Part shown: piece by piece, positions 2,921-51,047 of the stretch
Numbering within the stretch: position 1 is the first letter of the stretch
Layout of the letters: each line of letters begins with the position of its first letter
Source of the DNA: Bacteroidota bacterium
Lineage (GTDB): Bacteria > Bacteroidota > Bacteroidia > Palsa-965
Reading direction: 5' to 3'
Length of the DNA stretch: 51,047 nt
NCBI GenBank assembly: GCA_013298545.1
Contig: JAAFIA010000008.1
Span: 39,690 to 90,736, forward strand
The notes under the pieces: model-generated
The model's database searches: none
What the model was told of the DNA's origin: nothing
What the model saw: only the letters and a program-made list of their open reading frames with translations
Made by a program: the position numbers and the translations under genes

Positions 2921-2923
2921 ACC

Positions 2924-4469: not shown

Positions 4470-4474
4470 AACCG

Positions 4475-4482: not shown

Positions 4483-4500
4483 CACCAGATTTTAAACGTC

Positions 4501-4770: not shown

Positions 4771-4790
4771 TTATCCGGCAGCAACGTGTT

Positions 4791-4798
4791 TAATTTTG
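4791..4798 (+). promoter_or_regulatory. candidate -7 box for the korAB operon
   Basis: TAATTTTG fits TAnnTTTG. Transcription from here would give a leader of about 135 nt that contains the strong hairpin at 4896-4928 before korA begins. No clear -33 box is seen. Confidence 0.4.
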
Positions 4799-4895
4799 TT
4801 AAAGCAAAACCAAAACAGGCCTTTCAACCGTTTCCCCTTCGAAATTTAATCATTTCAGAAGCGGAACAAAACATAATCATCACATTTTTCTGATG

Positions 4896-4928
4896 AAAGG
4901 TTTTTCCGATGAAGGAAAAACCTTTTTT
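4896..4928 (+). terminator. intrinsic terminator or leader attenuator before korA
   Basis: A perfect 12-bp stem (4896-4907 with 4914-4925) with a 6-nt loop runs into six T residues (4923-4928). It may end the mrp-nfu transcript. Because a promoter-like box lies upstream, it could also act within a korA leader as an attenuator. It lies just upstream of the first sensible korA start codon. Confidence 0.7.
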
Positions 4929-4937
4929 CGTTTGTTA

Positions 4938-6794: not shown

Positions 6795-6821
6795 AACTTT
6801 TTTCGTCGATAAGCACGACGC

Positions 6822-7859: not shown

Positions 7860-8023
7860 GGGTTTTTTGGGGGGCGATTCGATACACTTTTTTTGGAAAA
7901 TTTGTTTGTAAATTGTTGCGCTGTTAGATGAGTCGGTGAAATGCTGTTAGCACTACACCAACCATTTAAATAATAGCAAAAAATGATCAGTAATCAACTT
8001 AGCGATATAAATATTATTATTAA

Positions 8024-9130: not shown

Positions 9131-10752
9131 TGATAGCTACTAAACAACTTTCATTTGACAATTCGCTTGAAAATGATTATTCGAAATCAATTTCATTAGA
9201 ACATCGGAAAAATTATGCTCAATTTTTCACACCTTTTCCTATTGCTGATTTAATGGCAAAATGGATTTTAGGTAATGAAAATCTTAATTCTGTTTTAGAA
9301 CCTGCATTTGGGCTTGGTGTATTTTCAAGAGCTATTTTGAAGCACAAAGAAGATATTCAGATTAAAGGCTTTGAAATTGATTCCAACATTTATAAAAAGG
9401 CAAAGCTGCATTTTGAAGATACTGAAAATGTAAATCTTCTTTTGCAAGATTACATGTACAATGATTGGGAAAATAAATATGATGGAATTATTTGTAATCC
9501 CCCCTATTTTAAATTCCATGATTACGACAATAAAAATATTCTAAAAGAAATTGAAGCTAATATCAAATTTAAGCTGAATGGTTTTGCAAACCTCTACACT
9601 TTATTTTTATTAAAATCAATTCATCAATTAAAACCCAACGGTCGTTGTGCATATATTATTCCTTCAGAATTTCTAAACTCTGACTACGGAAAGTTGGTGA
9701 AAACATATTTGATAAAAAGCAAAGTACTGAGGCATATCATTGTATTTGATTTTGAAGAAAATGTCTTTGACGATGTGCTAACTACTGCATCCATAATATT
9801 TTGTGCGAATGACGATCAATTAGACAGAGTTCAATTTAGCAATATCCAATCCATACAAGATTTGAATAAAATAGAAAAACTAGTTACGGATTACCCTCAT
9901 CTTTCAGACGTGGGGCAGTCCTTCCGTTTTTCAGAACTGAACCCTGAAATCAAATGGAAATCATATTACCAAAAACAAAATAGCATCAAGTTTAAAAACA
10001 TTGTGCCTTTTTCAACATACGCAAAAGTAGTCCGTGGAATTGCGACAGGATCGAATGCGTATTTTATTTTTAATATTTCAAAAGCCAAAGAGTATGGTAT
10101 CGAAGAACAATATTTATTGCCTTGCATTTGTAGTGCAAAAGATGCTAAAACGGCCTTCTTTACAGCATCTGATTTTGAAGAGTTAAAGAAAAATGATAAA
10201 AATATTTTTCTTTTTAATGCTCAAAAAGCGATAAGTAAAAATATTTTGTCCTATATAAAAAAAGGTGAAAAAGAAGAAATAAATAAACGATTCCTTACAG
10301 CAAGTAGAACACCTTGGTATTCTATAGAAAACAGAAGGCCTGCACCAATTTGGGTTTCTGTTTTTAATCGAGCAGGTTTGCGTTTTATTAGAAATGAGGC
10401 AAGTATTTCTAATTTAACATCATATCATTGTATTTATCTCAAACACACAAACCTGTTTTCGGAAGTTAGTACTGATTTACTTTTTGCTTATCTCTTGACG
10501 GATACAGCCAAAAAAATTTTTGACGATAATAGTCGACAATATGGTAACGGGTTACAAAAATTTGAACCTAACGACCTAAACAAAGGAATGATGCTTGACA
10601 TAGGATTACTTGACAATCAGACCAAAAACAAGATTTTAGATTTATATAATAAGTACAGAATTGTAACGCTTAACAATCAATGTGGAGACAAAATAATTAA
10701 CAAAATTGACAAAATATTGACTGACAAGTACAGCGAAAAATGCCCCAACTAG
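9130..10752 (+). CDS. type II N6-adenine DNA methyltransferase (AccI-like partner)
   Basis: This is a 540-aa SAM-dependent N6-adenine methylase that would protect the recognition site of the upstream endonuclease. AdoMet motif I is LEPAFGLGVFSRAIL (about residues 56-70) and catalytic motif IV is ICNPPYF (about 121-127); the order I-IV and the long C-terminal target-recognition region place it in the gamma class with TaqI/Eco57I-like enzymes. ARTPWYSIENR-like text late in the protein matches the recognition-domain signature of this class. It is A+T-rich like its partner. The 205 bp after the stop hold no gene and precede the sigma-factor gene. Confidence 0.85.
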   Translation: MIATKQLSFDNSLENDYSKSISLEHRKNYAQFFTPFPIADLMAKWILGNENLNSVLEPAFGLGVFSRAILKHKEDIQIKGFEIDSNIYKKAKLHFEDTENVNLLLQDYMYNDWENKYDGIICNPPYFKFHDYDNKNILKEIEANIKFKLNGFANLYTLFLLKSIHQLKPNGRCAYIIPSEFLNSDYGKLVKTYLIKSKVLRHIIVFDFEENVFDDVLTTASIIFCANDDQLDRVQFSNIQSIQDLNKIEKLVTDYPHLSDVGQSFRFSELNPEIKWKSYYQKQNSIKFKNIVPFSTYAKVVRGIATGSNAYFIFNISKAKEYGIEEQYLLPCICSAKDAKTAFFTASDFEELKKNDKNIFLFNAQKAISKNILSYIKKGEKEEINKRFLTASRTPWYSIENRRPAPIWVSVFNRAGLRFIRNEASISNLTSYHCIYLKHTNLFSEVSTDLLFAYLLTDTAKKIFDDNSRQYGNGLQKFEPNDLNKGMMLDIGLLDNQTKNKILDLYNKYRIVTLNNQCGDKIINKIDKILTDKYSEKCPN

Positions 10753-10957
10753 CATTAATTGGACAAAATGATACAACCGCAAATGCTACATTGACATGAT
10801 TGTGAGCTATTTGGTGTAACAGAACAAAGGTGTTTCATTAGATTTGAGGATTAGTAATTTTCAATAACTTAATCTATCACACCAAACTTGGTAGTATTCC
10901 AAACAAAAAATATGGAATCCCACCCTATCTTGCGTCTTCATTCACAGAATACAACGT

Positions 10958-11533
10958 ATGCGGTTTTTCCCTTGGAAACGTAAAAGTTCGCTTAGCGACG
11001 ATGAATTGTTACTTGCGTATCGCAACACAGGTGATAAGGCGTTGGTGGGCGAATTATACACGCGTTACGCACATTTGATTTATGGTCATTGCCTGAATTA
11101 TTTTGGCGATCGGGAATTGGCGCGTGATGCGGTGTTGCAGGTTTTCGAGAAATTATTTGAGACTTTGCTCAAGCAAACGCCTGATAATTTCAAAGTTTGG
11201 ATCAGTTTTGTGGCACGAAATCATTGCATTTCGGAATTGCGTAAACGGAAAACGGCTGACGGCAAACAGGATTTGTATGTGCGCGACGAAACAGAACTAA
11301 GTGTTGTTCCGAATGATGACGAGCAAAATCCGAAAGAGGCGCAATTGCAAAAACTGGAATCGGCGGTGGAAGAATTGGGCGATGAGCAGCGACGTTGTAT
11401 TGAATTGTTTTATCTGCAAGAAAAATCGTACCGCGAAATTGTGGCGATAACGGGTTTTTCGGAAAAGCAGGTGAAGAGTTATTTGCAAAACGGAAAACGA
11501 AATTTAAAACGCATACTGACACAATCGGCATGA
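10958..11533 (+). CDS. ECF-type RNA polymerase sigma factor
   Basis: This is a 191-aa sigma-70 family protein of the extracytoplasmic-function group. Region 2 (about residues 20-90, LYTRYAHLIYGHCLNYFGDRELARDAVLQVFEKL) and region 4 (about 125-185, ending with the helix-turn-helix YREIVAITGFSEKQVKSYLQNGKRNLKRIL) are both present and complete. It lacks region 3, as ECF factors do. The last 4 bp overlap the next gene (ATGA), a zinc-finger membrane protein that is the obvious anti-sigma partner, so the pair probably senses an envelope condition. No convincing TAnnTTTG box lies upstream; autoregulation by its own promoter type is possible. Confidence 0.9.
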   Translation: MRFFPWKRKSSLSDDELLLAYRNTGDKALVGELYTRYAHLIYGHCLNYFGDRELARDAVLQVFEKLFETLLKQTPDNFKVWISFVARNHCISELRKRKTADGKQDLYVRDETELSVVPNDDEQNPKEAQLQKLESAVEELGDEQRRCIELFYLQEKSYREIVAITGFSEKQVKSYLQNGKRNLKRILTQSA

Positions 11534-12618
11534 TTACATCTCCACAAACGCCAGTCGTTGACGCTTGTTTGACTGAAACTGCGTTCAAACAATACGTTGA
11601 AGGGAAACTTTCTTCAGCGGAGCAGCGTGGCATTGAATTGCATTTGAACGAGTGTAGCTTGTGTGCTTCGGCCATGAGTGGTTTCTTGGCATCGCCGGAA
11701 GCCTTAAATGATGTTTCGTCCATTCGTGCAGAACTTGCACAGCGTAGCGGCATGTCTAGCTTTTCGACGGCATCGAAAGTGATTATGGGAACGGCGTTTC
11801 TTGCGGTGGCGGCACTTGTTGCGATCTTGGCGTGGCCTAGAACGGAAGTAGAAAAAGAGCAGCCGTTTGTTGGTCCTGAAATAAATACTATTCTTCCAAA
11901 TCAAACGGCAGAAAATACTGCTGCTCCAGCGCGCGACGAGCATTTTATAAATCCGCAAGCACCAGCACCGCGCCCGAAACCCGCGACGGATGCGTCAGTA
12001 GAGGATTCGGCAGAAACGCAATTGCCGGAATGGGTACAGCCGATGGATGCGAAACCTCCGCAGCCGCTCTTGCCGGAAGAAGTGCAGCCGGGGAAACCAC
12101 AACCGGAGTACAATGCAGCCTTTGTTTACATCTTGGATTTAAAAGTTACGGGGTTTGACACGTATTACCGCAAAAATATTGTGGTGGACGATTTACCCTT
12201 GCGTGGTGTTCCAGCCCAATTTGGGAATGAAGAGGAAATTGAAAAGGCCGATGATGAAACCAAGCGAAGTATTCCGGCAGATCGGGTTTTGCGCGAGGCC
12301 TTGCAAAGTTTTAATGAGGGGCGTTATGGCCGTTGCATTTCGAAATGCGATTTGTTACTGAAGTCGAATGCGCAGGATGTGAATGCGTTGTTTTATACAG
12401 GCGTGAGTTATGTGCGGCTGGAAATGCCAGAAAAAGCCATTCCGTATTTAGATCGGGTGTTGGCGGAAACGAATAATGTGTTTCATGAGGAAGCCTTGTG
12501 GTACAAAGCACTTGCGCTCAACAATGCTGGAGATCGCGAAGGAAGTATGAAGTTATTTAAACAGATTGCTGCACAGCCAGGATATTATCAGGCGAAGGCG
12601 AAGGAAAAATTAAAATAG
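11530..12618 (+). CDS. anti-sigma factor with zinc-finger domain and periplasmic TPR region
   Basis: This is a 362-aa single-pass membrane protein. A cytoplasmic N-terminal zf-HC2/ZAS domain has the H-x3-C-x2-C signature in HLNECSLC (about residues 37-44). One transmembrane helix follows (about 86-105, GTAFLAVAALVAILAW), then a Pro-rich linker (about 135-195), and the C-terminal ~100 residues form TPR-like helices (LQSFNEGRYGRCISKCDLLLKSN, ALFYTGVSYVRLEMPEKAIPYLDRVL). The ZAS domain would hold the sigma factor, while the periplasmic TPRs could bind an envelope partner. It overlaps the sigma gene by 4 bp. Confidence 0.85.
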   Translation: MITSPQTPVVDACLTETAFKQYVEGKLSSAEQRGIELHLNECSLCASAMSGFLASPEALNDVSSIRAELAQRSGMSSFSTASKVIMGTAFLAVAALVAILAWPRTEVEKEQPFVGPEINTILPNQTAENTAAPARDEHFINPQAPAPRPKPATDASVEDSAETQLPEWVQPMDAKPPQPLLPEEVQPGKPQPEYNAAFVYILDLKVTGFDTYYRKNIVVDDLPLRGVPAQFGNEEEIEKADDETKRSIPADRVLREALQSFNEGRYGRCISKCDLLLKSNAQDVNALFYTGVSYVRLEMPEKAIPYLDRVLAETNNVFHEEALWYKALALNNAGDREGSMKLFKQIAAQPGYYQAKAKEKLK

Positions 12619-37898: not shown

Positions 37899-40800
37899 TG
37901 TTGACCTCCATCCTGATTTGGAACAGTTTCTTCGCCCTCGCCCATCGGCACAATAATTTCCTCTTGTTTGCGAAGTGTATTTTTTTGTTCCGAAAGTAAA
38001 ATCATGTCCAGTTTTGTTTGCGCTTCTTTTTGCAATTCAGGAACATCGCCATTATCGATGTAATCCTGCAACACATACTTCGCGTTAAATGTATCTTTCA
38101 AGGCCAAATAATTATCGGCAAGGAGCAACATGCCTTTGCCTTTCCATTGTGCAAAGCCAGCGTAATCGTTGATGAATTTGAACAAATCTTTCTCTGCTGT
38201 CTTGTATTCTTTTTTCTGGTAACGAATCCAAGCGAGTTGGTAACGCGCTTCGGCGGCATAATCATTTTTTACATACTTCTCGACTTGTAAAAACGCGGTC
38301 TTCGCGTCGTCCAAATTTCCTTGCGACAAAGCCGCTTTTCCTTTCAACCAATACGCCTGACCCAAAATATCGCCATTGGGTTTTGGTGAGATGTTTACAA
38401 CTTTATTGGCCCAAACCGCAGCCGAATCGGTGTTTCCTAAATTCACCCAACACTTCATCAAATTCACACGCGCATCTTGTTGTGTTGCTGGAGTCGATTC
38501 AACTTCCAAGCGGTTGTACATGCGAATGGCATTTGCATAATCTTTTTGCTTGTGATACATAAACGCATTTTGTGTCAAGCAACGATCGGTGTATTTTGAT
38601 TTTCCTTTATCGAGTACCGCATTGTAGGAGCCAATTGCCGTTGGGTAATCGTTCGATTTAAACGCACACTCCGCACGCATATACTGCACATCGGTAATGT
38701 AATTTCCAGCAGGATATTTCTGAATATATTTATTCAGTTGTGGCATAGCCTCTGCACAATTTCCAGCCGAATATAGGCGGCGAGCCACTTCAAATGTGGT
38801 GCTATCGCCAACGGCTGTAGCCTCCACAAATCCAACAGACTCTGCATATTTTTCCCACTCATCAATGCGGTTTGTTTTCAAGTAAATTTCTTTGATCTCA
38901 CGCAGCGCACTCATTTTGTCGCCTGTACCACCACTCATCGAAACGGCTGTTTTATACGCCTTCAATGCATTCGCATCGTCGTTTTTGGTGCGGTATATCA
39001 GGCCCATTTGCATTTGGCACATCATGGCCTTGGGTCCTTTCGGATCTTCCAGATAAATTTCGTTGTACAAACGCAAGGCTTCGTCGTACATCTGCAAATC
39101 GTGGTATGTACTGGCTTCATCAAAACGCGAAGCACCTTTTACATACGGCGAATTGGGATACGTCTCACGCAACTTGCGCAGCATATCTACTTTTTCTTTT
39201 TTGCGCCCCAAATAACCGAGTGCCAAAGCGTGTTGACGCATGGCATAATCTTTATGCACTTCGGTTGGCGTTTTGGTTGTTTGTGCAGCTTGATAAAATT
39301 CTGATGCATTGATGTAATCGCCTAAAACTAAATAGCCATCGCCCAAGCGCAAGTTCGCATCCATCAACCGCTCCGCCTGATTTTCTGGCTTATTCACCAC
39401 ATATTTCCGAAACCAAACAACCGAATTTTTGTAATCCTTGCGTTGATGGTAAGCGTATCCAATATTATAATTGGCCGTATTGTAATTGGTTAAATTGGAA
39501 GCACCGGGCGCAAACAAAAACTTTTTATACTCCGTTACCGCTTTGGTGTACATGCTCGTATCGCGTTCAGCCTCCGCGCGCGCGTACCACGTCTCCCCTT
39601 TCCAGTAATAGGCTTGCGCAATCAAATCTTTATTCATCGGATACGTCATCGACTTATCAAAATTCACAATGGCTGCGGCATATTCTTTTTTATTGAACAG
39701 CTCCACCGCATAATTGTAGGCGACTTGTTGGTGTGCAGGACGCATGGCCGGACTAAGCGTCTTGATTTTTTCCATCGACGTAAGTGCCTTGCCGTAATTT
39801 TTGGTGCTCAAATAAACATTCGTGAGCAAGGTGTATGCTTCGTCATGACGCGAAGAATTTGGAAATTCTTTAAGGTATTGTTCCAACGCCACAATTGCTT
39901 CGTTGAAGGGACTAAACGAAAGTTCGTAACTCAACCGCGCATAATTGAACAAAGCATCTTCGCGAATACCCGGATCGTGTTTCATTTCCGATGCTTTGCC
40001 GAAAGCCGTTCGCGCCGCTTGCTTATTATCTGTTTTCACATAACAATCGCCCAAATGATACCACGCATTTTGATCGAGTCGGTCTGCCGAATCGGTTAGT
40101 GCTTGTTGGAAATACGGAATCGCAGCGGAAGGATTTTCTGCACGGTAATTGGCGTAGCCAAATTCGTAATAATCTTCGCGCGTCAAATTCCACGACCCTT
40201 GTTTGTAAATATCGAAATACGTTACGGCCTCTTTGTAGCGCGCGGTGCGGTAGTACGACTCGCCAATCAATTTTGCAATTTCCGATTTCCGTTTGGCCGA
40301 ATCCATGAGCGGAGGCGCAAACTTGATCACATCCTCATAACGCCCTTGCAAGTAATAAATCTGTGCAATGTAAAAGGGCACAACCGGACCAAACGTTTCG
40401 TGCTTTGTTAAGCGATTAAATCCATCGAGGGCCGTTTGGTAATTGCCTTCGGTATAAGCAATGTGTGAGTAGTAATAATTTGCCGATGCCGAATACTTCG
40501 TATCAATATCGCGAATCTCAAAGAAATCGGTTTTTGCAGAATCGAGATAACCCAACTCGAAGTACGAATAGCCGCGCTTGAATCGAAATTCGGCTAATTC
40601 TTCTTTCTGCAAATCGCGTAAATCAACAATCCGAAACCAGTTGATGGCCTCGTCGTATTTCTTTTTCCGGTAGTGATAACGTCCTAACTGAAAATACACG
40701 CGATGCACTTTCGGACTTTCGGGATGATGCTCGATAAACTTTGTCAAGCGCCATTCGGCGTCTTTGTGAAACAATTCCAACGCACAAACCGCCGCATAAT

Positions 40801-41020
40801 ATTCGGCATCAATGGTTATTAAATTTTTTGGGTCTTTTGCTTGCTTGACAATGTCGTCAAAACATGCTTGTGCTGCGACAAATTTTTGTTTTTCAAACAA
40901 ATCAAGTCCACGGCGAAATTCTGCATCTGGGGCAATGAATGTTTGTGCCTGTTGAGCAGACAAAGAAAAAAATGGTGAGACACCGAGAAGAAAACAAATC
41001 AACCACCTTACGAGGCGCAT
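37895..41020 (-). CDS. large periplasmic TPR protein
   Basis: This is a 1041-aa protein of tandem tetratricopeptide repeats, about 20 units across nearly the whole length (e.g. YHYRKKKYDEAINWFRIVD, AYHQRKDYKNSVVWFRKYV, RYQLAWIRYQKKEYKTAEKDLFKFINDYAG). A signal peptide (about residues 1-22, ending LSAQ) sends it to the periplasm. The units alternate with YfgM/BamD-like 'tetratricopeptide outer membrane protein' patterns. It is coupled to the barrel gene by a 4-bp overlap, which suggests a scaffold role for the barrel or its cargo. The C-terminus is acidic (MGEGEETVPNQDGGQQ). Confidence 0.85.
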   Translation of the reverse strand: MRLVRWLICFLLGVSPFFSLSAQQAQTFIAPDAEFRRGLDLFEKQKFVAAQACFDDIVKQAKDPKNLITIDAEYYAAVCALELFHKDAEWRLTKFIEHHPESPKVHRVYFQLGRYHYRKKKYDEAINWFRIVDLRDLQKEELAEFRFKRGYSYFELGYLDSAKTDFFEIRDIDTKYSASANYYYSHIAYTEGNYQTALDGFNRLTKHETFGPVVPFYIAQIYYLQGRYEDVIKFAPPLMDSAKRKSEIAKLIGESYYRTARYKEAVTYFDIYKQGSWNLTREDYYEFGYANYRAENPSAAIPYFQQALTDSADRLDQNAWYHLGDCYVKTDNKQAARTAFGKASEMKHDPGIREDALFNYARLSYELSFSPFNEAIVALEQYLKEFPNSSRHDEAYTLLTNVYLSTKNYGKALTSMEKIKTLSPAMRPAHQQVAYNYAVELFNKKEYAAAIVNFDKSMTYPMNKDLIAQAYYWKGETWYARAEAERDTSMYTKAVTEYKKFLFAPGASNLTNYNTANYNIGYAYHQRKDYKNSVVWFRKYVVNKPENQAERLMDANLRLGDGYLVLGDYINASEFYQAAQTTKTPTEVHKDYAMRQHALALGYLGRKKEKVDMLRKLRETYPNSPYVKGASRFDEASTYHDLQMYDEALRLYNEIYLEDPKGPKAMMCQMQMGLIYRTKNDDANALKAYKTAVSMSGGTGDKMSALREIKEIYLKTNRIDEWEKYAESVGFVEATAVGDSTTFEVARRLYSAGNCAEAMPQLNKYIQKYPAGNYITDVQYMRAECAFKSNDYPTAIGSYNAVLDKGKSKYTDRCLTQNAFMYHKQKDYANAIRMYNRLEVESTPATQQDARVNLMKCWVNLGNTDSAAVWANKVVNISPKPNGDILGQAYWLKGKAALSQGNLDDAKTAFLQVEKYVKNDYAAEARYQLAWIRYQKKEYKTAEKDLFKFINDYAGFAQWKGKGMLLLADNYLALKDTFNAKYVLQDYIDNGDVPELQKEAQTKLDMILLSEQKNTLRKQEEIIVPMGEGEETVPNQDGGQQ

Positions 41021-41151
41021 CTGAGATAGATTTAGCGAATAAAATTAGGTAAGGCTGTTTGTCGTCTTGGCTGGTTGGTGATGAAGTTATTAACGCGCAT
41101 TTGTTAAGATTATTATAAACGAGTTTTAGGCGTGGCTAGACATATACGGTT

Positions 41152-41376
41152 TGGAGTTGGTGAGTTACTAAGTTGGTGAATTACTAAATTGGTGAGTTGG
41201 TGAGTTATTGAGTTGGTGAGTTGCTAAATTGGTGATTGGGTGATTCGCTAATTCACCAACTCACTAATTCACCAATTAGCGTAGGCAGGTGCGGAGGAAA
41301 TCAATTCGCCAATTAGCGTAGGCAGGTGCGTTGGAAATCAATTCGCCAATTAGCGCAGCAAGTGCGGAGGAAATTC
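41152..41376 (+). repeat. dispersed intergenic repeat C (TTGGTGAATT words plus 37-bp tandem)
   Basis: Most of the 392-bp gap before the FtsE-like gene is low-complexity text of TTGGTGAGTTACTAA-type words (41152-41245), then a dyad CGCTAATT ... AATTAGCG (around 41246-41281), then a 37-bp unit beginning AATTAGCGTAGGCAGGTGCG at 41274, 41311 and 41348 (three copies, the last divergent). Words such as AGTTGGTGAATT and ATTCGCTAATT are shared with repeats A and B. No gene fits. Confidence 0.75.
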
Positions 41377-41400
41377 GTGCTGATTGTGGGCGGAAAATTT

Positions 41401-41408
41401 TACCTTTG
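41401..41408 (+). promoter_or_regulatory. -7 box directly upstream of the FtsE-like gene
   Basis: TACCTTTG ends only 4 nt before the ATG at 41413, so transcription should start at or beside the start codon. It is preceded by the repeat C tandem units. Confidence 0.5.
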
Positions 41409-41412
41409 GCAC

Positions 41413-42114
41413 ATGAGTTCAAACGCAATCATTCACCTCGAACAGGTTACTGTTTTTCAGAAACACAACATGGTTTTGTCTAATGTGAGTTTTGACATTT
41501 CCGACAATGAATTTGTTTACCTCGTTGGAAAAACCGGAAGTGGAAAATCGAGTTTGATGAAAACCTTGTATGCCGATGTTCCGTTGGTGAAAGGCCATGC
41601 ATCGATTGCGGGTTATGACCTCAACACCATTTCAAAAAAAGAAGTTCCTTTTCTGCGCCGCAAACTGGGTATTGTTTTTCAAGATTTTCAATTGCTTTAC
41701 GACCGTAGTGCAAACGAAAATTTATTTTTTGTCATGAAGGCAACAGGCTGGAACGACAAGAAAAAAATGCAGGATCGTGCGCAGGAGGTTTTAGATAAAG
41801 TTGGATTAGCAACCAAAGGCCATAAAATGCCGCACGAGCTTTCGGGTGGCGAACAACAACGCGTTTCGATTGCCCGCGCGCTCATCAATGATCCAGAAGT
41901 GATTTTGGCCGACGAGCCAACCGGAAACCTCGATCCAGATACTTCGGCTGGAATTATCGGATTGCTTCAAGACATCAGCAAAACAGGTCGCGCGGTATTG
42001 ATTGCTACGCATGATATGTTGATGATTCAGCGTTTTCCTGCGCGCGTATTGCGTTGCGAAAATGGCGCTGTTAGTGATTCTGCACTCGTTAGCAACGAAG
42101 CTACGGTATCGTAA
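41413..42114 (+). CDS. ftsE: FtsE-like ABC-transporter ATP-binding protein
   Basis: This is a 233-aa ABC ATPase. Walker A is GKTGSGKSS (about residues 39-47), Q-loop [14 protein letters not shown] signature [15 protein letters not shown] (about 143), Walker [13 protein letters not shown], and H-loop IATHDM. Gly-Lys-Thr-Gly-Ser-Gly and the short form with [12 protein letters not shown] agree with FtsE, which with FtsX couples ATP hydrolysis to peptidoglycan remodelling at division. FtsX itself is not adjacent, so some lipoprotein- or LolD-type exporter role cannot be excluded. Start is ATG 41413; an earlier in-frame ATG lies in the repeat region. The convergent glycosyltransferase gene ends 3 bp away. 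Confidence 0.85.
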
Positions 42115-42117
42115 ATT

Positions 42118-43236
42118 TTATTTCAGCAAGTGAATGATTTTGGCAGCGTTCAACTCGTTGCTAAATCCTTTTCCCAATATCCGTTTTCGTGCTTGAATGG
42201 CTTCGGCTGTAAAGGGTTTTTCGTACATATCGAGCAACCGTAATTTCATCATCAGCGCCGTTTCTGCCACAACACAAGCGGCTTCCAATCCGGTATTGGC
42301 CACCATCGGCGGATTCACAACACAATGCCGTCCGCGAAATAATGCTGCAAGCAATTTCAATTTGATTCCTGTTGCTTGAAAAGTGGGTAAGACGTTAATT
42401 TGTGCCGACGAAATCAAATGATCAATTTCTTCCGGTGCGATATTGGCTTTTAAGGAACAATTGGCTCGTGCCGCAACAGCTTCTTGCAATTCGGCAGAAG
42501 GATTATTTCCGGAAATGATTAAGTCAATATCAAGTGTATTAAAAACTTCGCGCACCAAAAAAAGTGCAGCTTGATTATTTTCTCCTACTTCTAAATTGCC
42601 ATGATACAAAGCAAATTTTCCACGTCCCGTTTCTGAAACAACATCGCTGTATGCGTGAAATGCCATGACGTGATGAACATTTTCGTAGCGCGCGGCAAGC
42701 GATTTCGCATCTGCCGGAGAAATAGCTAAAATCCGATTGGCGTGTTTCAATACGGCTTCAAATTCGCGCAGTTTTTTCGCCTCGCGCTTGAAGTACATTT
42801 TTCGGAAATAGTGTTTTTCAACTGTTGCCAAAGAATCGTAATAATCGTGCTCGATGTTGTGTGTGCGAACGAGTTTCAATCGTTTCTTCAACCGCGGATC
42901 ATCTAAAAATCCGCAACAATGAAGACCTTCAAATAAAATAGGATAATCATCGCGCAATAAATTTTCGAGCAAGGCTTTTACCTTTCGCGTTGAAACGATG
43001 TAAGGCAATTTCCCGAATAGCAAATGCTTGTTGGTTCGTCGCGGATAATACCGAACACTCGCGCAAATCGCTTCCAATTCTTTACTCGCCTCACGACCAT
43101 ATTGGAAACAATGCAAATGCACGTGCATTCCAAATGCTTTCAATGCCTTGATTTTGTAAAAAATATCAATCACCCCGCCATAACTGGGAGGAAACGGAAC
43201 ATCGAATGCCACTAAATGAATATGCTCAGACGACAC
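42118..43236 (-). CDS. glycosyltransferase (GT4-like)
   Basis: This is a 372-aa cytoplasmic glycosyltransferase with a two-domain GT-B layout. The N-terminal domain has HLVAFDVPFPPSYGGVIDIFYKIKALKAFG, the SYGGV loop typical of GT4 acceptor binding, and KRLKLVRTHNIEHDYY. The C-terminal nucleotide-sugar domain has KFALYHGNLEVGENNQAALFLV and LISSAQINVLPTFQATGIKLKLLAALFRG. Donor and acceptor are unknown; it may serve surface polysaccharide or glycolipid synthesis. The start codon is GTG at 43236 (MSSEHIH). A second glycosyltransferase lies 143 bp upstream on the same strand. Confidence 0.85.
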   Translation of the reverse strand: MSSEHIHLVAFDVPFPPSYGGVIDIFYKIKALKAFGMHVHLHCFQYGREASKELEAICASVRYYPRRTNKHLLFGKLPYIVSTRKVKALLENLLRDDYPILFEGLHCCGFLDDPRLKKRLKLVRTHNIEHDYYDSLATVEKHYFRKMYFKREAKKLREFEAVLKHANRILAISPADAKSLAARYENVHHVMAFHAYSDVVSETGRGKFALYHGNLEVGENNQAALFLVREVFNTLDIDLIISGNNPSAELQEAVAARANCSLKANIAPEEIDHLISSAQINVLPTFQATGIKLKLLAALFRGRHCVVNPPMVANTGLEAACVVAETALMMKLRLLDMYEKPFTAEAIQARKRILGKGFSNELNAAKIIHLLK

Positions 43237-43379
43237 GTTAGTAGTACTGCGTCTTCACGCAGGTTGATGAATAAAAAAATTAATGATGTAAAAATGTGTC
43301 GATCGCGAATGGATTTGGGTCTATTTACAGGCGCAAGATCAGTATTTTTTTGGGATGCAACAACCTTTTTCGACCGATT

Positions 43380-44504
43380 TTATTTCGCTTTTAAGAGCGG
43401 TGCGAAAACCTGTTTCAGGTTGACTTCTTCGGCCTCCCAACACAATTCATGTTTTACTTTTTCGGCTTGTGCTCGCCAGTGTTGCTGTTTGCTTTCATCA
43501 AACATAGCGCGAAGTGTTTGCGCAATCGTTTTGGGGTCATGGCTTGGCGCGATAGCACCAATGGCATACGTTTCTACAATGCGTTTTACTTCAATCAAAT
43601 CGGACGCCAATACCGGAACACCAGCATGGATGTAATCAAAAATTTTGTTTGGTAAACTAAAGCGGTAGTTGATGTTGGTGTCTTTATCTAACGTCAAGCC
43701 CACATCGGCAAGGCGTGTGTAAATGCGCAATTCTTCGAGCGGAAGCCGCGCGATGAAACGCACGCGATCTTCTAATTTTTTTTCGGCAACATTTCTTTTG
43801 AGTGTCGCAATGACGTCGCCGCTACCAATGATGAGCAAGATGGCTTCGGGCAAAAATTCCATAGCGGCCACCGCTTCTTCGGCTCCCCGATCTACATTAA
43901 TTCCCGCTCCTTGCAACAATACAATTTTCCGATCGGTGGGCAATCCCAATGCTTCGCGCGTTTTCATGCATACTGGCGAAACGTGCAAACGTGGCATGTT
44001 GCGCAAGACATACGGATTGACGTTGTATCGTTCTTTGTACCAAGCTGCAATGGATGCGTTGACGGTAAACATGTTTTTTAGTCCGGGCACCAAATGCCGT
44101 TCTAAGCGTTTCCATAATTTTTGCTTGGTTGGCCGATTGGTTAATTCTGGAACTTCTGTAAAAATTTCGTGTGCATCGTAAACAATCATTTTATTGCGCC
44201 AACGTGCCAAGATGCGATTTGGCCAGAGGGTATCTAAATCATTGGCCACATAAACATCGGCTTTACGAAACAACAAAAACCAGAACAAGCGCCATTGAAA
44301 CGTTGCGTAAAACAAAACGCCTTTTTCAAACATCAATTTCATGCGGTGCGTGCGGTATGCGCGGGGAGCAAGTGGCGGACTGTCTCGTTTTTCGCGGCCT
44401 ACGAGCAACACATCAAAGCCCATTTCGTGCAGCGTAGTGCAGGTTTTATGCACACGCTGATCGGTAACTAAATCGTTGATAACAGAAACGATGGCTTTTT
44501 TCAC
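43380..44504 (-). CDS. glycosyltransferase (GT4-like)
   Basis: This is a ~374-aa GT-B glycosyltransferase. I chose the GTG at 44504 because KKAIVSVINDLVTDQRVHKTCTTLHEMGFDVLLVGR is the family's usual N-terminus, while 32 extra residues from an upstream ATG do not fit. Donor-domain motifs are KIVLLQGAGINVDRGAEEAVAAM, LEDRVRFIARLPLEELRIYTRLADVGLTLD and the FSLPNKIFDYIHAGVPVLASDL segment of GT4. EIFTEVPEL... lies in the acceptor domain. It is divergent from murB across a 140-bp gap. Adjacent to a second glycosyltransferase; both probably build a cell-surface glycan. Confidence 0.85.
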   Translation of the reverse strand: MKKAIVSVINDLVTDQRVHKTCTTLHEMGFDVLLVGREKRDSPPLAPRAYRTHRMKLMFEKGVLFYATFQWRLFWFLLFRKADVYVANDLDTLWPNRILARWRNKMIVYDAHEIFTEVPELTNRPTKQKLWKRLERHLVPGLKNMFTVNASIAAWYKERYNVNPYVLRNMPRLHVSPVCMKTREALGLPTDRKIVLLQGAGINVDRGAEEAVAAMEFLPEAILLIIGSGDVIATLKRNVAEKKLEDRVRFIARLPLEELRIYTRLADVGLTLDKDTNINYRFSLPNKIFDYIHAGVPVLASDLIEVKRIVETYAIGAIAPSHDPKTIAQTLRAMFDESKQQHWRAQAEKVKHELCWEAEEVNLKQVFAPLLKAK

Positions 44505-44644
44505 GGGCGAAAATTGATGGGGTGAAATTAGGAATATTACAGCGAGTACCTTCATCGCTTGCGCATAAATCGCAACACACGCGTTTTGTAAATCGGGCAT
44601 TGCTTATCTTCGCAAACAGATTTTATCACCTCATCGAAAAACGC

Positions 44645-45670
44645 ATGTCTGAAATTTCTGCAAACGCGTCCCTTCATCCGTACAACACATTTGGCATGCA
44701 TGCGAACGCGCGTTGGTTTACGCGTGTGCGTTCGCTCGAAGATGTTCAGGTGCTTGTTGCTACCGAAATTTTCAACCAAAACGAACGGTTGATTTTGGGT
44801 GGCGGGAGCAATATGTTGCTCATCCAACATTTCGATGGGTTGGTGATTAAAAACGAATTGTATGGCATTGAAGTGGTGCGCGAGGATGCGGATGCGGTGT
44901 ATGTGCGGGCGGGCGCGGGCGAGAACTGGCATGCGTTTGTACAACATACCATTGCGCAGGGCTGGGGCGGGCTGGAAAACCTCTCCTTAATTCCGGGCAA
45001 TGTGGGTGCTGCGCCCATGCAAAACATTGGTGCTTACGGTGTAGAAATTAAAGATTGTTTTCACACGCTCGAGGCTTTTCATTGGCAGCAAAAAGAAGTT
45101 CATACGTTTGATGCAGCAGCTTGTCAGTTTGGCTATCGCGAAAGTGTTTTCAAACATGCGGCCAAAAATCAATACTTGATTCTGAACGTAACGTTTCGTT
45201 TGTTGAAAAACCCAACCCTCAATATTAGTTACGGCGCAATTGCAAAAGAACTTGAAACGATGCAGGTTGTGCAACCAACCATTCGCGATGTGAGCAATGC
45301 CGTGATGCATATTCGTCAAAGTAAATTGCCCGATCCCAAGCAAATTGGCAATGCTGGAAGTTTTTTCAAAAACCCTGTCGTGGGTGCAGAAAAACACGCG
45401 GCTTTACTGGCTGAATTTTCGAATCTTGTTGCGTACAAAAATTCAGATACGGAATTTAAACTGGCTGCGGGATGGCTCATCGAGCAATGCGGATGGAAAG
45501 GTCAACGTTTTGGCGATGCTGGTGTGCATAAAGATCAAGCTCTTGTTCTTGTCAATTATGGAAATGCAAGTGGAAAAGAAATTTTCGATTTATCGCAACG
45601 CATCCTCGATTCTGTCCAAGAAAAATTTGGCGTATTGCTCGAGCGCGAAGTGAATATGATAGGCTTGTAA
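44645..45670 (+). CDS. murB: UDP-N-acetylenolpyruvoylglucosamine reductase
   Basis: This is a 341-aa FAD enzyme (E. coli-type I length) that reduces UDP-GlcNAc-enolpyruvate to UDP-MurNAc in peptidoglycan synthesis. FAD-binding GGGSNMLLIQ is at about residues 52-61, with LSLIPGNVGAAPMQNIGAYGVEI (about 115-137, including the Y/S region) and the catalytic Ser and Glu in GNAGSFFKNP and the C-terminal half. ATG 44645 gives the family N-terminus (NTFGMHANARW). The stop codon abuts that of aroA on the opposite strand. A near -7 box (TATCTTCG at 44605) lies upstream. Confidence 0.94.
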   Translation: MSEISANASLHPYNTFGMHANARWFTRVRSLEDVQVLVATEIFNQNERLILGGGSNMLLIQHFDGLVIKNELYGIEVVREDADAVYVRAGAGENWHAFVQHTIAQGWGGLENLSLIPGNVGAAPMQNIGAYGVEIKDCFHTLEAFHWQQKEVHTFDAAACQFGYRESVFKHAAKNQYLILNVTFRLLKNPTLNISYGAIAKELETMQVVQPTIRDVSNAVMHIRQSKLPDPKQIGNAGSFFKNPVVGAEKHAALLAEFSNLVAYKNSDTEFKLAAGWLIEQCGWKGQRFGDAGVHKDQALVLVNYGNASGKEIFDLSQRILDSVQEKFGVLLEREVNMIGL

Positions 45671-46927
45671 TTACAATTCTTCAACCACAAATCCCAACCG
45701 TTTCAATTCTTCCCAAAAACTGGGGTACGATTTTTCAACGACCGAAGCATCATCAAACGTAACAGGGGCAAGCAAGGCCAAGGGTGCAAACGACATGGCC
45801 ATGCGGTGATCGTTGTAGGTATGAATCGTTAATTCGGAAAATTTTTCGGTCGCGAATGCGGTTATGCCTAAAACGCCGTTTTCAGGTTCATTGCACACAA
45901 CACCATATTTCCGCATTTCGTTCTGAAGCGCAGCTACACGATCGGTTTCTTTGATTCGTAACGTATTGATGCCACAAAACAACAGGGGTATTTTTAACGC
46001 CGAAGCCGTTACCGCAACGGTTTGTACAATATCGGGGCAGTCTTCAAAATTGAAGGCTACATTTTTGGGGCGATAACCTGTTTTTGTCAAACGCACACCA
46101 CCGTCTTCAAATGTCGCATGAACACCAAAAAAGTCGTACAAATTGGCCGTTACCCGATCGCCCTGCAAACTATCTTTGCGTAAACCAGGAATAAATACAT
46201 CAACATCTTTTGCAAGCGCAGCCATCGAAAACCAATACGAAGCCGCACTCCAATCGGGCTCTACCAAGAAATGGGTTTCACTTTCCGGCACGTAGTAATT
46301 CTGTCCACTCACCGATAAGGTATTTCCTGACCAAATTGGATGTACACCAAACCGTTCCATGATGCGAATGGTCATGTTGATGTAAGAGCGCGAAACAATT
46401 GGCCCTTTGAAATGAATCACTAAGCCATTGTGCAATTTTGGAGCAATGAGTAAAAGTGCTGAAACGAATTGGCTGCTCACGCTTCCGTCAACTTCAATTT
46501 CGCCTCCGGCCAAAACGCCACCTTCAATTTTCAACGGAACAAATCCGGGTTCGCCCAAGTATTCAATTTTTGCACCCAAGGCGCGAAGGCCATCAACCAA
46601 AATATGAATCGGACGTTCCTGCATGCGCGCACTACCTGTCAGTACACGCGTTCCCGGTAGAATTGAAAAATACGCCGTTAGAAAACGGGTTGTTGTTCCG
46701 GCAGGTCCTGAATCATATACTTCGCCCAAGCCTTTGCCAACTTTCGCCTCAGCTAAAATGCGTACCAAGGTCTTGGTATCTTCGGCATCAGAAAACACAT
46801 CCATCGGAAATTCGACACCACTTAACTCTCGAATAATGAGCAAGCGGTTGTTTTCGCTTTTAGAAAGCGGCAACCTTACTTCTCCTCGAAGTGTTTGTGT
46901 TGGATGTGATAGCCGGATTCGTTTCAT
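45671..46927 (-). CDS. aroA: 3-phosphoshikimate 1-carboxyvinyltransferase (EPSP synthase)
   Basis: This is a 418-aa shikimate-pathway enzyme making EPSP from shikimate-3-phosphate and PEP. SKSENNRLLIIRELSG near the N-terminus corresponds to the SKSxxxR substrate loop, GPAGTTTRFLTAYF to the GTTMR-like loop, DGSVSSQFVSALLLIAP to the shikimate site, and TYNDHRMAMSFAPLALLAP to the C-terminal active site. I chose ATG 46927, since the extra 30 residues from an upstream ATG do not match the family. It lies 2 bp downstream of aroB in the same direction, forming an aroB-aroA operon, and ends back to back with murB without a gap. Confidence 0.92.
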   Translation of the reverse strand: MKRIRLSHPTQTLRGEVRLPLSKSENNRLLIIRELSGVEFPMDVFSDAEDTKTLVRILAEAKVGKGLGEVYDSGPAGTTTRFLTAYFSILPGTRVLTGSARMQERPIHILVDGLRALGAKIEYLGEPGFVPLKIEGGVLAGGEIEVDGSVSSQFVSALLLIAPKLHNGLVIHFKGPIVSRSYINMTIRIMERFGVHPIWSGNTLSVSGQNYYVPESETHFLVEPDWSAASYWFSMAALAKDVDVFIPGLRKDSLQGDRVTANLYDFFGVHATFEDGGVRLTKTGYRPKNVAFNFEDCPDIVQTVAVTASALKIPLLFCGINTLRIKETDRVAALQNEMRKYGVVCNEPENGVLGITAFATEKFSELTIHTYNDHRMAMSFAPLALLAPVTFDDASVVEKSYPSFWEELKRLGFVVEEL

Positions 46928-46929
46928 GG

Positions 46930-48024
46930 TTAACGAATAAGAAGTGCACTCTTGACGGAATAACGGTAATACTGCAAGGCTTCGATAATTTGATCCGGCG
47001 AACAAGCTACATGCCATTTCGCTTGACCAATGCGTTCGAGCAAGGTAAAACGAATTTTTCCGCCTTCGTTCTTTTTATCATGACGCATCAATTCAATGAG
47101 TCGGTGATCGGCATCATCGTCGAGCGTGATGGGTAAATAACGTTGGGTAATGAATTGCGTAATATCTTCCAATTCATCGGCAGATAATTTCGCTTGTTGG
47201 TTTGATAACCAAGCCTCACAGATCATCCCCGCAGCAACAGCTTCGCCGTGTAAAACAGAGGAAGAAACGCGTTCGAGAAAAAATGCTTCGATGGCATGAC
47301 CAATAGTATGCCCGAAATTCAAGCTTTTACGCAATCCTTTTTCTTTGGGATCTTCTTGTACAATTTCAGACTTAATCTCCACCGAGCGGGCAATCAATTC
47401 GGGCCACGCTTGATTATCGGCAATGGATGTTATTTTTATTTTTTTCCAATACGAAGCATCGGCAATAAGTCCATGCTTGATGGCTTCGGCAAAACCAGCA
47501 AGCATTTCGCGTTTGGAAAGTGTTTGCAAAAAATCGGGGTAAATAAATACGGCTTCTGGTTCGCTGAATGTTCCTATTTCGTTTTTTAATCCATCGAGAT
47601 CAACACCCGTTTTTCCACCAACAGAAGCATCGATCTGCGCCAACAAGGTTGTTGGAATGTTTAAAAAACGAATACCACGCTTGAATGTGGATGCGACAAA
47701 GCCACCCAAATCGGACAAAACGCCACCACCAAGATTGATGATGAGTGATTGCCGGTCGGCCCCGAGTTCGGAGAGGACGCGCCAGACTTGCAAAACCACA
47801 TCGGGGGTTTTATTGAGTTCACCACTTTCCAGTTCAATGATTTCTGCATTAGCCAAACTTTTTACGCGACCAATGAGGCGTGGAAGGCAATGTTGTAACG
47901 TGTTTTCATCGACCAGAATAAATACCGAAGACATTTTCTCTTTTTTTAACCAGAGGTCGAGTTGCGTCAACGCATCGTCGCCTAGATAAATTGGAGTGCC
48001 AATCGGAATCAAAGGTTTGCCCAT
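46930..48024 (-). CDS. aroB: 3-dehydroquinate synthase
   Basis: This is a 364-aa NAD-dependent enzyme that cyclises DAHP to 3-dehydroquinate, the second step of the shikimate pathway. GGGVLSDLGGFVASTFKRGI (about residues 100-119) and IDASVGGKTGVDLDGLKNEIG (about 131-151) are its NAD and active-site loops, and NFGHTIGHAIEAF (about 243-255) holds metal-ligand histidines. The ATG at 48024 (MGKPLIPIGTPIYLGDDAL) is chosen; an upstream ATG extends into the divergent promoter region. A -7 box lies 5 nt upstream. Followed by aroA. Confidence 0.93.
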   Translation of the reverse strand: MGKPLIPIGTPIYLGDDALTQLDLWLKKEKMSSVFILVDENTLQHCLPRLIGRVKSLANAEIIELESGELNKTPDVVLQVWRVLSELGADRQSLIINLGGGVLSDLGGFVASTFKRGIRFLNIPTTLLAQIDASVGGKTGVDLDGLKNEIGTFSEPEAVFIYPDFLQTLSKREMLAGFAEAIKHGLIADASYWKKIKITSIADNQAWPELIARSVEIKSEIVQEDPKEKGLRKSLNFGHTIGHAIEAFFLERVSSSVLHGEAVAAGMICEAWLSNQQAKLSADELEDITQFITQRYLPITLDDDADHRLIELMRHDKKNEGGKIRFTLLERIGQAKWHVACSPDQIIEALQYYRYSVKSALLIR

Positions 48025-48029
48025 ATCAA

Positions 48030-48037
48030 CAAAAATA
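48030..48037 (-). promoter_or_regulatory. -7 box of the aroBA operon (leaderless)
   Basis: On the minus strand TATTTTTG fits TAnnTTTG and ends 5 nt before the aroB ATG. Transcription therefore starts at or next to the start codon. It is divergent from the proline dehydrogenase promoter ~95 bp away. Confidence 0.45.
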
Positions 48038-48131
48038 ATCTTTTTATGAGGCAAAAGCGAATATCCCAGACGATTAATGGAGCTTCGGGACATACTTCGC
48101 CAACAAGCGAATCACGAAGCCTCTTTTCCCT

Positions 48132-48139
48132 TAATTTTG
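48132..48139 (+). promoter_or_regulatory. -7 box of the proline dehydrogenase gene
   Basis: TAATTTTG matches TAnnTTTG and ends 20 nt before the ATG at 48160. This box supports that ATG over an upstream one (48046) lying before the box. Confidence 0.5.
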
Positions 48140-48159
48140 CCTACGATTTAAAAAACACA

Positions 48160-49323
48160 ATGGTTTCATTCGACAATACCGAAATTGCTTTTTCAGGCAA
48201 AACAAACAGCGATTTGCGTCGTTCTTACTGGCTTTTCAAACTCATCGGAAATCCAGCATTTGTTCGCATGGGAAAATCGCTCACAACATTTGCGATCAAA
48301 ACGCATTTGCCCATCAAAGGCATCATCAAAGCCACTATTTTCAAGCAATTTGTAGGTGGTGAAAACATCGAAGAATGTAGTCGTACCATTGAATCGCTTG
48401 GAAAGTTTCGGATTGGAACTATCCTTGATTATTCGGTCGAGGGCAAAGAATCGGAAACCGATTTTGACCATTGTGCTACCGAAACAATTGCCACCATCAA
48501 CCGCGCAAAAAACGATACGAATATTCCATTTTGTGTCTTTAAAGTAACGGGTCTCGCTCGCTTTGACCTACTTGAAAAAGTAAGTGCTGGAAAAACACTT
48601 TCTTCCGAAGAGACTACAGAATTTGAACGTGTAAAAAAACGCGTTGAAAAAATTTGCACGACTGCTCGCGATGCCGGAAAGCCGATTTTCATCGATGCCG
48701 AAGAAAGCTGGATTCAGCAAGCTATCGACGATTTAGCGGATGCCATGATGGCCCTTTGTAATCGTGAAAAAGCAATCGTTTACAACACCTTTCAATTGTA
48801 CCGCAAAGATCGTCTCGCATTTTTGAAACAATCGTTTGAAAAAGCACAGGCCGGAAATTATTTGTTGGGGGCCAAACTAGTTCGCGGGGCGTATATGGAA
48901 AAGGAGCGCGAACGTGCTGCCGCAAATAATTACCCTTCACCCATTCAAGACACGAAAGAAAACAGCGACCGCGATTACGATCTAGCCTTGCTTTATTGCA
49001 TCGAACACATCGAGCGGTTGGCCGTTTGTGCAGGAAGCCACAACGAATCGAGTTCCTTGCTCCTTGTAAAATGTATGCAGGAAAAACAAATTCGTAACGA
49101 TCATCCGCATGTGTTTTTTTCGCAGTTGTTTGGCATGAGCGATCACATCAGTTTCAATTTATCGAATGCTGGATATAATGTAGCGAAATACGTTCCTTAT
49201 GGTCCGGTACGCGAAGTACTTCCTTACCTCATTCGCCGCGCACAAGAAAACACATCGGTAAAAGGACAAACCGGACGCGAATTGAGTTTGATTATTAAGG
49301 AAAAGAAAAGAAGGAAGAATTAA
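48160..49323 (+). CDS. proline dehydrogenase
   Basis: This is a 387-aa FAD enzyme (PutA-type PRODH, monofunctional) that oxidises proline to pyrroline-5-carboxylate and reduces the quinone pool or an acceptor. The (beta-alpha)8 barrel signatures are KPIFIDAEESWIQQAIDDL, YNTFQLYRKDRLAFL, AKLVRGAYMEKERERA, CAGSHNESSS, VFFSQLFGMSDHISFNL and VPYGPVREVLPYLIRRAQEN. The start at 48160 is supported by the promoter box and the loss of a nonconserved leader. No pyrroline-5-carboxylate dehydrogenase gene adjoins it, so the pathway is split. The stop lies 29 bp before repeat B. Confidence 0.93.
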   Translation: MVSFDNTEIAFSGKTNSDLRRSYWLFKLIGNPAFVRMGKSLTTFAIKTHLPIKGIIKATIFKQFVGGENIEECSRTIESLGKFRIGTILDYSVEGKESETDFDHCATETIATINRAKNDTNIPFCVFKVTGLARFDLLEKVSAGKTLSSEETTEFERVKKRVEKICTTARDAGKPIFIDAEESWIQQAIDDLADAMMALCNREKAIVYNTFQLYRKDRLAFLKQSFEKAQAGNYLLGAKLVRGAYMEKERERAAANNYPSPIQDTKENSDRDYDLALLYCIEHIERLAVCAGSHNESSSLLLVKCMQEKQIRNDHPHVFFSQLFGMSDHISFNLSNAGYNVAKYVPYGPVREVLPYLIRRAQENTSVKGQTGRELSLIIKEKKRRKN

Positions 49324-49352
49324 TTCTTCTGCAAGTTGTTAGGTTATGGAGA

Positions 49353-49571
49353 TTTTTCTCCCCGCATGGCCCTCGCGGACATGATGTTTTTCTCCCCGCA
49401 TGGCCCTCGCAGACATGAGACAGGAGACTTGAGACATGAGACGAGAGACTGCACGAAGCTAGCGCACAGTTGGTGAATTTGAGAATTGGCAAAATCAGTA
49501 ATTCGCTAATTTACCAATCCACCCAGTCTCATGTCTCCTGTCTCAAGTCTCTTGTCTCAAGTCTCTTGTCT
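49353..49571 (-). repeat. dispersed intergenic repeat B (inverted copy of repeat A)
   Basis: This is the reverse complement of repeat A. Two copies of a GC-rich unit (ctccccgcatggccctcgc at 49358 and 49392, period 34 bp) are followed by GAGACNN heptamers (about 49411-49450), the core (49430-49530, identical over 101 bp to 21390-21490) and GTCTCNN heptamers to 49571. It differs from A in heptamer number and order. It fills part of the 529-bp gap between proline dehydrogenase and the CRISPR array; no gene fits. Confidence 0.85.
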
Positions 49572-49852
49572 AAAGCATTTTCCCTAAATCCCCGCACAGT
49601 ATAGCTTTTGGAGTATATTCGTTACCAAACGAGTAACGTTTTAGAACCAAATGCCAAAATTTACCGCGAACTAGCCCGTATTTGCTTATGCTTGGCAAAT
49701 GATTTCAGATTGTTTCTGAATGTGCCGTTATGCTGCATTGTGAATGAACTATTTCAAATATACAAGATTCTTATGGATTAAAAAATTATTCCAAACATTG
49801 ACTTGATAGCATTATTTTTTTGATCGTTTCTTAGCCAGATATTACTTTTTAG
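49572..49852. other. A+T-rich gap between repeat B and the CRISPR array
   Basis: 281 bp without an open reading frame that I can support. A short dyad CGTTAC-CAAACGA-GTAACG (about 49619-49637) is the only clear structure. I see no anti-repeat (tracrRNA-like match to the CRISPR repeat). Because the first repeat beside it is degenerate, this looks like the distal (trailer) side of the array. Confidence 0.5.
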
Positions 49853-51047
49853 GGAATAATCAAAAATGAAATTGAAGGCGTTCCCAACCAACCTGCTCCA
49901 ACTCCTTACTTCTTAAGGGTTGTGTGTGCCATTCAAATTGAAGGCGTTCCCAACTAGTGTATTTTTCTACGTGGGCAATCACCGTTGTGTGTGCCTTTCA
50001 AATTGAAGGCGTTCCCAACTTGGTGTGTTAGTTTCCATTTTTAAAAACAGTTGTGTGTGCCTTTCAAATTGAAGGCGTTCCCAACTCTGTAATACTCGGA
50101 ACTAAACAGGTCAAGGTTGTGTGTGCCATTCAAATTGAAGGCGTTCCCAACGCAGAAAGTCAAGTTGAAAAACAGGCGGTTGTTGTGTGTGCCATTCAAA
50201 TTGAAGGCGTTCCCAACCACAATTGTTCTACAAACATTAATTGCACTGTTGTGTGTGCCATTCAAATTGAAGGCGTTCCCAACAGAAAATTTCTTTTAAA
50301 ACAATGACACAACGTTGTGTGTGCCATTCAAATTGAAGGCGTTCCCAACGGCAGACTTTGTGCCAATCCCAATGGCAGGGTTGTGTGTGCCATTCAAATT
50401 GAAGGCGTTCCCAACGACATTCTTTTTTCGTAGAAAGTGTGTCCAGTTGTGTGTGCCATTCAAATTGAAGGCGTTCCCAACGATACCGTTGGCGCAATCC
50501 GCGGACAATTTGTTGTGTGTGCCATTCAAATTGAAGGCGTTCCCAACAACTTTTTTTGTTAAAACCGAACCAATCTAGTTGTGTGTGCCATTCAAATTGA
50601 AGGCGTTCCCAACGTATTTGTATAATGAAGAATGACCACTTATGTTGTGTGTGCCATTCAAATTGAAGGCGTTCCCAACGTAATCAGCGGAGTTGAGCCA
50701 ACTGGAAATGTTGTGTGTGCCATTCAAATTGAAGGCGTTCCCAACTTGTTCAGATTCACCTGCAATTGTTTGCGGGTTGTGTGTGCCATTCAAATTGAAG
50801 GCGTTCCCAACAAATTGTGATGAAAAACTTTGACGAAGAAAGTTGTGTGTGCCTTTCAAATTGAAGGCGTTCCCAACACACAAGGAAAAAATGACTAAAG
50901 CACTTTAGTTGTGTGTGCCTTTCAAATTGAAGGCGTTCCCAACCCGAAAATCAAAACAAAGTCGTAACAACTTGTTGTGTGTGCCTTTCAAATTGAAGGC
51001 GTTCCCAACTTATGAGAAAAAAAATAAGGCTGAAGGTGCGTTGTGTG
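49853..51047. CRISPR. CRISPR array, 17 intact repeats plus one degenerate and one cut by the edge
   Basis: 36-nt repeats begin at 49919, 49984, 50050, 50116, 50182, 50248, 50314, 50380, 50446, 50512, 50578, 50644, 50710, 50776, 50842, 50908 and 50974, with a partial one at 51040. A degenerate copy, intact only in its right half, is at 49853. On plus the repeat starts GTTGTGTGTGCC and ends GGCGTTCCCAAC. All 18 spacers are 30 nt except one of 29 nt (49955-49983). Position 13 is A in most repeats but T at 49984, 50050, 50842, 50908 and 50974. The array runs off the right end; no cas gene is in the window. Confidence 0.98.

Follow-up and report, generated by a model that had tools for sequence, protein, structure and literature searches.

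A CRISPR array at a contig end of a Bacteroidota genome as the probable leader-distal part of a divergent type VI-B2 locus

In subtype VI-B2 of the CRISPR-Cas systems the accessory protein Csx28 has been described as universal, and the processing of the crRNA is attributed to conserved lysine and arginine residues of the Lid domain (review, PMC8209922). The function reported for Csx28 is that of a pore (VanderWal 2023, as described in PMC12669027 and PMC13153721). A leader-repeat hairpin was shown by experiment in the VI-B2 system of Porphyromonas gingivalis (PMC13187072), and in Flavobacterium columnare the VI-B array makes use of the Cas1 of a II-C system (PMC8092290). We compare with these systems a locus that begins in the stretch of 51,047 nucleotides analysed here (the window), which corresponds to positions 39690-90736 of contig C133, in a genome assembled as 154 contigs (4.53 Mb, 97% complete); the contig terminates where the window does. 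We have little doubt that the array which closes the window is one part, the leader-distal one, of a type VI-B2 locus that would operate by the mechanism proposed below.

The array lies on the minus strand (Table 1) and is real, a chance origin being excluded by so many near-identical copies. Its intact 36-nt repeats are spaced 66 nt apart, and the 18 spacers within the window measure 30 nt, with one of 29 nt, so that the lengths given in a preliminary description of this DNA were confirmed save for that single spacer. In minus-strand orientation the repeat reads GTTGGGAACGCCTTCAATTTGAA[A/T]GGCACACACAAC, which begins with GTTG and closes with CAAC; these ends, together with the 36-nt repeats and the 30-nt spacers, are those expected of type VI-B. 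The motifs GTTGGGA, TTTGAA and CACAAC named in the preliminary description are all present, but TTTGAA is not followed directly by GG, as had been written, since one base, either A or T, stands between them. The copies with the A variant (GAAAGG) occupy the right-hand end, with two more near the trailer, the remaining copies being of the T variant (GAATGG). That the left end is the trailer and that the leader lies to the right, as had also been proposed, agrees with the decayed repeat at the left end and with the leader side carried by contig C123. In the same way, the reported absence of a tracrRNA-like anti-repeat held when we searched the flanks of the array, where none exceeded chance, and an Rfam search of window positions 40000-51047 gave no match.

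The trailer flank ends at a gene (48046-49323) that we take, from recognition of its sequence and not from a family search, to be proline-dehydrogenase-like. An empty site is not demonstrable, because in the regions fetched from genus mates this gene had no common downstream neighbours. Within that flank, at 49353-49571, lie intergenic repeats formed by two 32-nt direct copies (TTTTTCTCCCCGCATGGCCCTCGCGGACATGA) and by 41-nt inverted arms of the GAGACATGAGAC type, an arrangement that suggests an intergenic repeat of mobile or structural nature.

Outside this array, the one place in the genome that carries the same repeat is the start of contig C123, where five intact copies in the identical orientation give way to non-repeat sequence; the repeats of the two contigs are identical across all 36 nt. 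C133 holds the decayed trailer and no leader, C123 the intact leader side and no trailer, both contigs break in the middle of the array, and the repeats flanking the break are of the A variant on either side. From these complementary halves we infer a single array interrupted by an assembly gap of 35 nt or more, which join rests on the shared repeat, the orientation and the repeat variant, and not on reads. Both contigs together carry 22 complete spacers and one partial spacer, and further ones may be missing. In the direction of transcription the order would be cas13b, csx28, leader, array; and the orientations of repeat, leader, trailer and genes fit an array co-directional with cas13b and a crRNA having the spacer 5' and the repeat 3'. 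Transcription very probably enters the array from C123, through the leader. Beyond cas13b on that contig we also observed a gene whose 1558-aa product bears a type IX secretion tail (L010, 4721-9397) and, on the same strand, a near-identical partial second copy of it (10717-12378).

Table 1. Features of the array, its flank and its putative continuation (window positions unless contig C123 is named)
Feature	Coordinates	Strand	Remarks
CRISPR array, leader-distal part	49853..51047	-	contig end at 51047; probable continuation on C123 (locus L010, 1-322)
Terminal (oldest) repeat, 3' half degenerate: GTTGGGAACGCCTTCAATTTCATTTTTGATTATTCC	49853..49888	-	first 20 nt (minus strand) kept
17 intact 36-nt repeats with spacers	49919..51009	-	
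Spacer closest to the contig end	51010..51039	-	
Repeat cut by the end of C133; last 8 nt, minus strand, CACACAAC	51040..51047	-	
Trailer flank between array and proline-dehydrogenase-like gene	49324..49852	.	anti-repeat: none above chance
Array, C123 part	C123 322-1	-	then putative gap of at least 35 nt, then window 51047-49853
Leader, 52 nt	C123 374-323	-	between csx28 stop and repeat 1
csx28, 181 aa	C123 375-920	-	8-nt overlap with cas13b end
cas13b, 1190 aa	C123 913-4485	-	

The preliminary description had expected the effector beyond position 51047, and had proposed a search to the right for csx27 or csx28 and for a Cas13b with two RxxxxH motifs; the continuation on C123 does encode such a Cas13b, and next to it Csx28. 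The Cas13b matches NCBIfam NF038190 with 681 bits (cut-off 150), is also called by PADLOC, and matches PbuCas13b (PDB 6dtd) with an E of 3.4e-140. Its HEPN motifs RNKYSH (122-127; R122/H127) and RNAIMH (1133-1138; R1133/H1138), which lie near the N- and C-termini, both align with those of 27 relatives, and neither cas13b nor csx28, each of full length, has an internal stop. The Lid lysine, which nearly all relatives present as Y-x-K at what we take to be the position of K393 in PbuCas13b, presumably a processing residue, is found here one residue later, as Y-E-S-K371. A one-residue insertion is the simplest reading of the alignment with the relatives, and we rejected in its favour the loss of this lysine; nevertheless, because the lysine sits one residue later, the processing of crRNA by this Cas13b is not certain.

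Csx28 was recognised by NCBIfam NF040556 with 147 bits (cut-off 50), by PADLOC, and by its sequence match to PDB 8gi1 (E 1.1e-29); and the AlphaFold model of the protein (pLDDT 78) had 8gi1 as its sole significant PDB match (E 1.8e-6; TM 0.80 by target length). The predicted monomer fold matches that structure, and the octameric membrane pore would follow from membership of the family. The HEPN-like RxxxxH motif is eroded to RLFALA (R153-x4-A158), and in the Csx28 of two other loci, L030 and L046, the arginine is lost and the histidine kept, beside cas13b genes that are apparently intact. Since the motif appears to erode in several lineages, the sequences fit a pore better than an RNase; a fold and a gene pairing that remain when the HEPN-like histidine has gone would be expected of a pore.

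Because the accessory is Csx28 and not Csx27, the locus is, by its sequence, of subtype VI-B2 and not VI-B1: no csx27 stands next to cas13b, and this Cas13b lies apart from the csx27 loci in the tree. Thus, of the preliminary reading of the repeat as Cas13b-like, the assignment to type VI-B stood, upheld by NF038190, whereas the proposed likeness to the Bergeyella type, which is VI-B1, gave way before Csx28. The suggestion that the locus could hold a new effector or accessory found no support, both proteins belonging to known families, and the locus, though divergent, is in other respects typical of a known kind.

Among 12 genomes examined of its order, Cas13b was present in this genome only, and 3 of the 395 genomes of a sample of the class had a Cas13b match above the family cut-off. 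When 84,980 species genomes, one per species, were scanned with an alignment query, 29 Cas13b loci were obtained, about 23-30% identical over the matched part, versus zero relatives from a scan of genome contigs with a single sequence; measured by sequence against its relatives in those one-per-species genomes, at most about 30% identical, this Cas13b is divergent. A maximum-likelihood tree split the csx28 loci (ours, L022, L030 and L046) from the csx27 loci by a 100/100 branch; in this tree our Cas13b is a long branch whose exact position is unsure.

Some other loci deserve mention on their own account. One Cas13b clade (100/100) comprises L018 (Dysgonomonas sp. 511; 745-3313, 3749-4629 and 4767-6329), L025 (3206-4768) and L027 (443-1981), and in it a divergently transcribed gene for a 512-520 aa protein with C-terminal membrane helices adjoins cas13b. 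In L018 this protein was weakly CorA-like in PADLOC (E 4.7e-7), and an RT-Cas1 fusion, Cas2 and an array adjoin the locus as well; a survey of 2019 found RT-Cas1 only with Cas13a (PMC6753606). The association of a CorA-like accessory with type VI-B could represent a new variant. Locus L020 (genome G083, with the same genus label as Bacteroides pyogenes; 5935-8050, 8158-11514 and 11411-11977) has an array of some 31 units at 66-nt spacing, an adjoining 1118-aa protein with two RxxxxH motifs (RCYCTH and RNAAFH), for which PADLOC and NCBIfam gave no matching model and the PDB no clear relative, and a 188-aa membrane protein like the PycTM/2TM effectors; it may represent a variant of type VI that is rare or has yet to be described. 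Outside the Bacteroidota, a cas13b relative was found in the betaproteobacterium Methylophilus aquaticus (L026, about 4926-8318), with no array detected in the fetched stretch.

A search of the assembly for Cas1 and Cas2 found neither. The cas9 of the same genome (G000:C118:25545-27460; L080, 5547-7461), an ORF that matches TIGR01865 with 302 bits, is cut at residue 638 by the contig end, and in three genus mates (G002, G003 and G005) the gene immediately after a full cas9 is cas1, which in G002 and G003 is a type II Cas1 by NCBIfam. For these reasons the absence of Cas1 and Cas2 is probably due to an assembly gap, and we rejected as a firm claim that of a genome without adaptation genes: to go by these sequences, a type II-C locus is very probably present in the genome, its cas1-cas2 lying in the gap, where its array probably lies too. 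By analogy with F. columnare, this II-C Cas1-Cas2 would probably supply new spacers to the VI-B2 array in trans. Nothing beyond chance was matched by the concatenated spacers among phages and plasmids, by eight spacer 22-mers in IMG/VR, or by the spacers in their own genome, which absence of targets says little, since sampling of the viruses of this lineage is probably poor, and leaves unproven an immunity to any given element.

Folding predicts that the sequence UCCCAC of the leader pairs with nucleotides 1-7 of repeat 1 and that a leader-internal stem extends the pairing. The resulting fold is favoured by 8.5 kcal/mol over the alternative in which the normal repeat hairpin persists, a difference that was reached by 50 of 5000 shuffled leaders (p about 0.01) and that none of 20 internal repeats attained, their maximum being 6.2; the fold would open the outer stem of repeat 1 only, and leave the inner repeat hairpin closed. 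This comparison of energies is sharper, but was picked after two earlier, cruder tests, of which the stricter, the opening of all repeat pairs, gave zero, and the other, the probability of outer-stem opening, was not significant (184 of 1000 shuffles), the outer stem being weak and opened by the shuffles too. L046 has a similar leader arm of different sequence (20 of 1000 shuffles), and in L022 the leader hairpin is weak (82 of 1000). The predicted leader-repeat hairpin would constitute an independent case in VI-B2.

Inside the 5' arm of this hairpin there is a promoter-like TAnnTTTG element (TACCTTTG), preceded at a distance of about 20 nt by a TTG, and this possible promoter, if used, would bypass the hairpin. 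Were there a switch of start site, a transcript coming from the cas operon would include the complete hairpin and block repeat 1; one begun in the leader would be without the 5' arm and lead to a leader-derived crRNA. That such a switch controls the first repeat, alongside a Csx28 that acts as a pore without a complete HEPN motif, is a conjecture to which we give little credence.

The mechanism that we propose for the VI-B2 locus is as follows. A single transcript would run from the cas genes via the leader into the array, and the pairing of the leader with the 5' end of repeat 1 would prevent a useless leader-derived crRNA. The crRNA, with its repeat 3' as in the family, would pair with a phage transcript and activate the two HEPN domains of Cas13b, which, again by family, would cut RNA indiscriminately; the Csx28 pore would then depolarise the cell and halt phage growth. 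New spacers would be added by the Cas1-Cas2 of the separate type II-C locus.

Against this proposal it could be argued that the array is that of the genome's type II-C (Cas9) locus and that the Cas13b array on C123 only resembles it, for cas9 is present at the end of C118 and the II-C repeats of the genus mates also have GTTGTG...CACAAC-like ends. Those repeats, however, differ in sequence, whereas the C133 and C123 repeats coincide at every position; C133 and C123 break inside an array, and C118 inside cas9; and near the array there is no significant anti-repeat and no cas9, a neighbour that the preliminary description had named as counting against its own reading, so that we deem this origin scarcely conceivable. 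It is very unlikely, in turn, that C133 and C123 represent two separate VI-B2 arrays with the same repeat, the former an orphan served in trans by the genes of the latter. A join drawn from repeat, orientation and repeat variant would allow it, but the leader side exists on C123 only and the trailer on C133 only, each contig breaks mid-array with the A variant at its broken end, and one array in two pieces takes fewer assumptions than two.

There remains the reading of the locus as a decayed and inactive VI-B2 system without function, to which the eroded Csx28 motif (R153...A158), the shifted Lid lysine, the degenerate terminal repeat and the spacers without targets would all be congenial. We nonetheless judge it improbable, in view of two full-length genes free of internal stops, a Cas13b with its HEPN catalytic residues intact, repeats that are nearly uniform, at least 22 complete and different spacers kept, and a Csx28 motif that is also broken in L030 and L046 (arginine lost) beside apparently intact cas13b genes. 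The proposed VI-B2 locus in two pieces is hence the reading that we retain.

The case illustrates how visual inspection of a repeat can assign a class 2 system to its correct type while the effector is still out of sight. The locus also adds a deep-branching pair of Cas13b and Csx28 from a thinly sampled Bacteroidia-like order, and orthologues as divergent as these are of use in testing which residues are important.

Compared with the VI-B2 system of Prevotella buccae (PbuCas13b, 6dtd; PbuCsx28, 8gi1), this locus has the same HEPN motifs and the same accessory, but its Csx28 has R153-x4-A158 in place of R152-x4-H157, and its Lid loop appears to have a one-residue insertion before the conserved lysine. 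With the VI-B2 locus of P. gingivalis AJW4 (EMBO J 2026, PMC13187072) it shares the order cas13b, csx28, leader, array and the 36/30-nt array; both leaders are short (43 nt in AJW4, 52 nt here) and are predicted to form a hairpin with repeat 1, a likeness drawn from the published description, although the hairpin here would take only nucleotides 1-7 of the repeat and leave the inner repeat hairpin closed. VI-B1 systems, of the Bergeyella and Bacteroides pyogenes type, have Cas13b and the 36-nt repeat in common with ours, but carry Csx27 instead of Csx28 and occupy a separate part of the Cas13b tree. Among the loci of our scan, L022 (Saccharicrinis), L046 (Odoribacteraceae) and L030 (Bacteroidia PG1894_40), whose Cas13b proteins are only about 26-29% identical to ours, have cas13b followed by an overlapping csx28, as here; in L030 the array that was detected flanks cas13b on its opposite side, whereas in L022 and L046 it comes directly after csx28, in the same order as in the locus described here.
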